Part shown: one piece after another, positions 1-30,059 of the stretch | Position numbering within the stretch: the stretch's first letter is position 1 | How the letters are laid out: each line of letters opens with the position of its first letter | Assembly (NCBI GenBank): GCA_945878555.1 | Contig: CAMDWI010000008.1 | Coordinates: forward strand, 1 to 64,000 | Reading direction: 5' to 3' | Length of the DNA: 64,000 nt | DNA from: Klebsiella pneumoniae | GTDB taxonomy: Bacteria > Pseudomonadota > Gammaproteobacteria > Eutrophobiales > Eutrophobiaceae | The notes under the pieces: generated by a model | The model's input: only the letters and a program-made list of their open reading frames with translations | Database searches by the model: none | Told to the model about the DNA's origin: nothing | Program-made: the position numbers and the translations under genes

Positions 1-149
1 CGAAATCCTGTTCAGATTGGGCACGGGAATATTACCGTGACAGACCGTTAGCCGCATGGATGCGGCGCTCGAGCGTACATGGATGTATTCACAGCGTGTC
101 TGGAAGGGTAATATTCCCGTGCCCAATCTGAACTGTCGTGGATTTCGGA
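1..149 (+). mobile_element. MITE-like element, copy 1, inside a hairpin target
   Basis: A 122-bp core (11-132) has perfect 26-bp terminal inverted repeats beginning TTCAGATTGGGCACGGGAAT. It is flanked by CTG on both sides (8-10 and 133-135), which looks like a 3-bp target duplication. Outside that, CGAAATC on the left and GGATTTCGG on the right are the arms of a short hairpin. The 70-bp interior contains two small palindromes with GG loops (GCCGCATGGATGCGGC and TACATGGATGTA) and no credible gene; the 81-aa ORF of the track here is an artefact. A second copy lies at 29880-30029. No transposase is present, so any movement would need an enzyme acting in trans. The left arm is cut by the window edge. 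Confidence 0.8.
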
Positions 150-188
150 GCAGGTATCTGGTATCAACCCTGCAGTTGCTAAGGAATG

Positions 189-29830: not shown

Positions 29831-29879
29831 ACCTGTACGATATCCAGTTACACGAAAGTATTTATTCTAAATAACTTTT

Positions 29880-30029
29880 CCGAAATCCACGACAGTTCAG
29901 ATTGGGCACGGGAATATTACCGTGACAGACCGTTAGCCGCATGGATGCGGCGCTCGAGCGTACATGGATGTATTCACAGCGTGTCTGGCAGGGTAATATT
30001 CCCGTGCCCAATCTGAACAGGATTTCGGA
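29880..30029 (+). mobile_element. MITE-like element, copy 2, opposite orientation within its hairpin target
   Basis: The core at 29896-30017 matches the core at 11-132 in the same orientation, with one interior difference seen (GGCAG against GGAAG) and identical 26-bp ends. Its flanks, CCGAAATCCACGACAG on the left and CAGGATTTCGG on the right, are the reverse complements of the right and left flanks of copy 1. CAG borders both ends. The core therefore sits in opposite orientation relative to the same 24-bp hairpin target (CCGAAATCC-loop-GGATTTCGG). It lies in the 229-bp gap between the convergent antiporter and ABC-permease genes. Confidence 0.82.
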
Positions 30030-30059
30030 ACAGTTATTTAGTGCCTATGGTGCAGTATT

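Follow-up and report, generated by a model that had tools for sequence, protein, structure and literature searches.

Anatomy of the element at the start of the window

The window considered here is a single stretch of 64,000 nucleotides whose first base is also the first base of contig C8 of its genome, G000, a draft assembly that is about 95% complete. It opens on a palindromic element, of which a second and complete copy lies further downstream (Table 1). The core of copy 1 spans 122 bp (11-132) and is delimited by perfect inverted repeats of 26 bp (11-36 and 107-132), around which a repeat finder run on the window returned slightly longer arms of 36 nt (10-45 and 98-133, 92%). CTG flanks the core on both sides (8-10 and 133-135), and further out CGAAATCC (1-8) is complementary to GGATTTCG (140-147) with TGTCGT (134-139) lying between, so that a hairpin remains when the core and one CTG are removed. 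From an energetic perspective, the strand of copy 1 folds at -49.5 kcal/mol with DNA parameters (z = -10.1), a value equalled by none of 200 shuffled sequences.

All these components had been correctly recognized in the initial annotation, which placed the element at 1-149; the anatomy stands, while the extent was underestimated, given that the whole unit reaches about position 158. The left end of copy 1 is missing because the window starts at the contig end, and the right end is decayed, with TG (159-160) in place of TA. Beyond it, between copy 1 and the end of an OmpA-like gene on the minus strand, a perfect 16-bp hairpin with a 3-nt loop (188-222) is probably the terminator of that gene.

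Table 1. Features of the two element copies found in the window (window positions).
Feature	Position	Strand	Remarks
Element copy 1	1..158	+	left ~11 bases and TA lost at the contig end; by-eye alignment with copy 2, L001 and L003-L007
Outer hairpin arm, 5' side, CGAAATCC (truncated)	1..8	+	
Middle arm GTTCAGATTGGGCACGGGAATATTACC	10..36	+	repeat finder; differs among copies and genera yet complementary
AGACC, 5' half of the stem that closes the three-way junction	42..46	+	covariation alignments
Hairpin 1, GCCGC-AUGGAU-GCGGC, loop ANGGAN	51..66	+	stem covaries, loop kept
Hairpin 2, GUAC-AUGGAU-GUAU	75..88	+	11/12 positions of the CsrA SELEX consensus RUACARGGAUGU
GTGTCT, 3' half of the junction-closing stem	96..101	+	covariation alignments
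Middle arm, 3' side	107..133	+	repeat finder
TGTCGT, unpaired side of the asymmetric internal loop	134..139	+	taken in the initial annotation for the loop of a target hairpin
Outer hairpin arm, 3' side	140..158	+	ends GTATC; consensus of copies GTTATT
Element copy 2, complete, C-TA-[29870-30038, 169 bp]-TA-G	29867..30041	+	unit limits taken from a sister copy with a filled/empty pair
Hairpin 1 of copy 2	29936..29951	+	
Hairpin 2 of copy 2	29960..29973	+	

Copies, boundaries and mobility

The inner core was found in about 62 places in its own genome (pattern search, up to 3 mismatches). Several of them, among the best 40 of 93 candidates from a first whole-genome search, are 97-100% identical and are therefore recent. 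Contigs C8, C32, C29, C24 and C26 of G000 start or stop inside or beside element copies, which shows the repeat to be a breakpoint of the draft assembly. Complete simple copies, with a unit length of about 169-170 bp, are organized as nested hairpins, in which an outer arm (CTAAATAACTGTTCCGAAATCC), an asymmetric internal loop (ACGACA / A) and a middle arm enclose the core; the middle arm varies among the simple copies but stays self-complementary, and the core is constant. The CTG on either side of the core, previously read as a duplication, turned out to be part of this internal loop, the side of which varies among copies. The ACGACA strand lies on one side of the core in L006, L007 and L009 and on the other in L001-L005, as would follow from an inversion of the core within its arms.

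The boundaries of the unit were sought by comparing the joined flanks of several copies with two sister genomes. One filled/empty pair was obtained: copy L005 reads CAACCG-CTA-[169 bp]-TAG-TCAC in G000, and the same-genus genome G004 reads CAACCG-CTAG-TCAC. The other genome, G003, is too diverged to give exact breakpoints. Since the empty site is a plain CTAG, the outer arms belong to a 169-bp element and TA is duplicated; the 2-bp TA duplication expected of a miniature element (MITE) of the IS630/Tc1-mariner type is thus present at this one locus. IS630/Tc1-mariner elements typically duplicate the TA of a CTAG target, and an IS630-type enzyme is what we infer as the mover. A transposase with matching ends, for which a search had been advised initially, did not emerge: a family search detected no DDE_3 transposase in the own genome or in the same-genus genomes G001-G004, and the outer-arm search of the own genome returned only element copies and one remnant.

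CTA/TAG is the commonest end pair, being found in 7 of the 39 copies with recognizable ends, which show 27 pair types in all; because the end bases vary so widely, the other copies give no firm support for CTAG. In 28 of the same 39 copies a long open reading frame stops at one or both ends of the unit, which fits insertion at stop codons. Some copies (for example L008, L023, L070 and L127) end in CTG...CAG, departing from CTA...TAG symmetrically at the two ends, a pattern that template switching would leave if one arm were used to correct the other.

The explanation first offered was that an element with 26-bp repeats inserts into a specific repeated hairpin and generates a 3-bp duplication. 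Two features speak in its favor, the flanking CTG trinucleotides and the hairpin that is left once the core and one CTG are taken out, as does a report that insertions of YPAL, a repeat of Yersinia, fall in or close to dyad symmetries (PMC2229807). Against it, the empty hairpin (GAAATCC-N0-12-GGATTTCG) was not found in the own genome, where the outer arm CTAAATAACTGTTCCGAAATCC has 22 matches (up to 3 mismatches), 21 of which are taken to belong to element copies, and the last one (C9:123096) to be a lone remnant without a partner. The arm is therefore seen only with element copies or as a remnant, never as an empty hairpin, and is a part of the element, the very outcome that the initial annotation had named as speaking against target specificity; moreover, the one empty site available is CTAG without any hairpin. 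With CTAG as the empty site and no unoccupied hairpin in the genome, a hairpin target combined with a CTG duplication was consequently rejected and is hardly credible. The other half of the proposal has held, as the many dispersed copies and the filled/empty pair support a non-autonomous mobile element, of which the feature is one copy: a TA-inserting hairpin element, or MITE, that abounds in this genus.

Structural variants

A group of copies (L014, L015, L072, L127, L093, L124, L142, L143, L085 and L152) has a different organization, named here the B-form, in which about 95 nt with more GGA hairpins, for example CCGTTACAGGGATGTAACGG, stand in place of hairpin 1. According to the predicted fold, this insert adds at least two further exposed GGA loops. 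In the B-form copy L072 the stem is changed (CCCGGTACAAGGATATACCGGG) and the loop is kept. At the orthologous locus L140 (G000:C16, ~2640-2796) G000 carries the simple form and G004:C67 a fused B-type form, so GGA hairpins have been gained or lost in place. Near the same locus, comparison of G003:C2:24852-25308 with L140 2214-4167 reveals about 1.5 kb that are absent from G003 and that in G000 consist of two element copies and the DNA between them, as if this stretch had been deleted, or inserted along with the copies. Some sister-genome copies have lost a GGA loop, reading ATGAAT in L102 and L111, and this loss weighs against a role of the loops as CsrA ligands. Furthermore, L145-L151, on contigs C1, C7, C14, C32, C33 and C36 of G000, form another subfamily of the core (GCACCCGAGCCTACATGGATGTATTCACGGCGT) whose arms are different, and its copies in C32 and C36 are closely spaced.

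Distribution and conserved fold of the core

A covariance model, built largely from loci collected with a pattern scan, detected the core in 76 of the 369 genomes sampled from the Gammaproteobacteria, belonging to 69 of 272 genera. At least 12 core candidates were present in 27 of the 76 carrier genomes, and true copy numbers are therefore higher. In genome contigs the core pattern was found in at least 84 stretches, which among the matches listed came from Gammaproteobacteria such as Microbulbifer, Marinobacter, Marinimicrobium and Sedimenticola or from uncultured bacteria. Viral contigs gave no match to the core pattern, plasmids and E. coli genomes no core by blastn (E 1e-5), and 15 loci no match to Rfam at gathering score.

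In the alignment of 45 hits from 38 loci, 92% of the paired cells hold a standard pair, vs 59% after shuffling and 34-44% when the partners are slid, and 433 cells are changed on both sides, compared with 119 in shuffles; a set of 31 sequences behaves alike (257 double-changed cells vs 73). The arms of loci from other genomes pair at 18.8 of 20 positions, and at 9.2 when partners are swapped. The two loops are far more constant than the stems that carry them. Hairpin 2 has the loop ANGGA in 45/45 hits, the scan pattern having included its GGA, and hairpin 1, which the pattern left unspecified, has GGA in 44/45; N is variable in both, and a C-G pair closes the loop in 45/45 hits for hairpin 1 and 43/45 for hairpin 2. 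Across 132 copies, hairpin 1 displays 45 distinct stems and A(N)GGA is retained in 119, and the stems of hairpin 2 change with compensation around a kept loop (CCCC/GGGT, GTCC/GGAT, GCAC/GTGT, GTAT/ATAT). Both ANGGAN hexaloops lie on one and the same strand, ANGGA is present in 169/169 copies collected with a regular expression that carried no loop requirement, and the predicted RNA fold of copy 2 keeps both GGA loops open. These alignments show the core to be an RNA-like module with a conserved predicted fold, and such a covarying module deserves an RNA family of its own, even if CsrA plays no part.

Gene context

Gene orientation was counted with a trained classifier; greedy longest-ORF calls gave unreliable counts. 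In this genus, of the 46 copies with a gene call on either side, 35 have convergent neighbors and not one has divergent neighbors. In tandem contexts the GGA strand is sense in 22 cases vs antisense in 15 in the other genomes (p = 0.32), and sense in 5 vs antisense in 6 in this genus; the lack of strand bias with respect to neighboring genes counts against an RNA role in cis. The convergent preference places the element at gene ends and says nothing on which strand matters, and it may merely reflect the presence of CTAG at stop codons together with avoidance of promoters.

This context could also be explained by a 3'-UTR hairpin that stabilizes or terminates upstream transcripts, as has been considered for Yersinia YPAL, with loops bound by another protein or by none. 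The predominance of convergent neighbors, the total lack of divergent ones and the open reading frames stopping at unit ends would all fit, and YPAL possibly alters the RNA stability of upstream transcripts (reviewed in PMC2229807). However, near-invariant ANGGA loops on variable stems are left unexplained, as stability alone tolerates any loop, and we judge this explanation quite improbable.

The case for CsrA

The consensus selected for CsrA by SELEX is RUACARGGAUGU, in which ACA and GGA are fully conserved and GGA is exposed in a hairpin loop (for a review see PMC4347634). Hairpin 2 of the element mostly reads GUACANGGAYGUAY, which agrees with the consensus at 12/12 positions when a purine stands at N and U at Y; the copies in the window score 11/12, and copies whose first stem base is C score lower. 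The host genome encodes one CsrA, of ordinary sequence. The trait of paired ANGGA-loop hairpins, characteristic of CsrA/RsmA-binding RNAs, is present in the aligned hits and in the predicted RNA folds. The loops, the fold and the gains of GGA hairpins in the B-form suggest that RNA of the element is bound by CsrA, and the twin ANGGAN loops would most likely serve as a ligand for the dimeric CsrA/RsmA protein.

The same loops might instead be kept for recognition of the extruded hairpin as DNA, by the mobilizing enzyme or by a host protein, with no part for RNA or CsrA. This would agree with the missing strand bias relative to genes, with a palindrome that folds on both strands and with the 97-100% identity of several own-genome copies, but it leaves aside that both loops are ANGGA with N free, are closed by C-G and lie on one strand, and that hairpin 2 closely matches a consensus selected on RNA. 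In known cases, DNA-hairpin recognition relies on features other than twin ANGGA loops: in REP and IS200/IS605 systems it is the foot of the stem or unpaired guide bases that are read. For these reasons a purely DNA-based role appears rather unlikely.

The reading that we regard as probable is that of a 169-bp MITE which inserts at the TA of CTAG and spreads twin predicted RNA ligands of the CsrA/RsmA type at the 3' ends of genes. According to this CsrA model, insertion would often coincide with a stop codon or the 3' end of a gene, and RNA of the GGA strand would form one long hairpin with a three-way junction on top, bearing the two ANGGAN hexaloop hairpins. Each copy, if transcribed as we infer, would attach a small putative CsrA ligand to a message at its 3' end, and many copies together could serve as a dispersed CsrA decoy.

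Relationship to known repeats and RNAs

The closest known relatives are YPAL and RU-2, repeats of Yersinia and Erwinia that are likewise about 168 bp long, form a long hairpin, and are intergenic and dispersed. RU-2 as printed (PMC2759123) shares the core CGCGCCAAGGATGGCGCGGCTCGAGCCTACATGGATGTATTTACGGCG with the element in an alignment, and its predicted fold also has open GGA loops. A survey counted YPAL in Yersinia genomes and three copies in E. coli (PMC2847712). YPAL is described as a dispersed repeat with target duplications of 3-26 bp, targets that span or adjoin a dyad symmetry, and ends without TA (PMC2229807), whereas the element shows a 2-bp TA duplication in CTAG, from one pair; moreover, the arms of YPAL are unrelated to those of the element. 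The Rfam family Ysr224 aligns to the opposite strand of the element, below threshold. In the open full-text literature, a scope that excludes most subscription papers, neither a report linking YPAL to CsrA nor a description of the element family was found. The core was therefore already known from YPAL; to this the present analysis adds how widely the family is distributed, its covariation, the two ANGGA loops and their match to CsrA, and ends unlike those of YPAL.

Among mobile repeats, the IS630/Tc1-mariner-type MITEs, such as Correia/NEMIS and ERIC, resemble the element in TA duplication, palindromic structure and lack of evident coding capacity, TA ends having been reported for Correia and ERIC (PMC2229807). 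The element differs from them in its conserved RNA-like three-way junction, and a DDE_3 transposase is lacking from the five genomes of the genus that were searched. Among RNAs, TwoAYGGAY (RF01731) has two hairpins with AYGGAY-type loops and occurs in taxa that include the gamma-Proteobacteria (PMC2864571); it is predicted to bind CsrA, with a tandem G-A in a stem (PMC4333381). The element too has two loops of this type, in which the second base is any letter and not only Y, but the Rfam model RF01731 gave no match in nine element loci up to E = 10, and TwoAYGGAY is not described as a mobile repeat (PMC2864571, PMC4333381), whereas the element is dispersed. The decoy RNAs CsrB, CsrC and RsmX/Y/Z share with the element several GGA hairpin loops, to which the B-form adds at least two. 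Unlike them, the element is scattered at gene ends in about 60 copies and its CsrA binding is a prediction.

Implications

A wider proposal, tentative and possible rather than probable, is that mobile hairpins scatter a predicted high-affinity ligand of the CsrA dimer at gene 3' ends throughout the class, transposition adding genes to the Csr/Rsm network or titrating it, with YPAL as one branch. The CsrA reading would offer a molecular hypothesis for YPAL, for which an effect on RNA has been put forward with no known partner. Should CsrA play no part, the element is still a covarying RNA-like module present in 69 of the 272 sampled genera and without an Rfam match at gathering score in 15 loci. 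If the loops do bind CsrA, a mobile element would be spreading sites for a global regulator through many gammaproteobacterial genomes, and this would represent a testable route for the rewiring of post-transcriptional networks.
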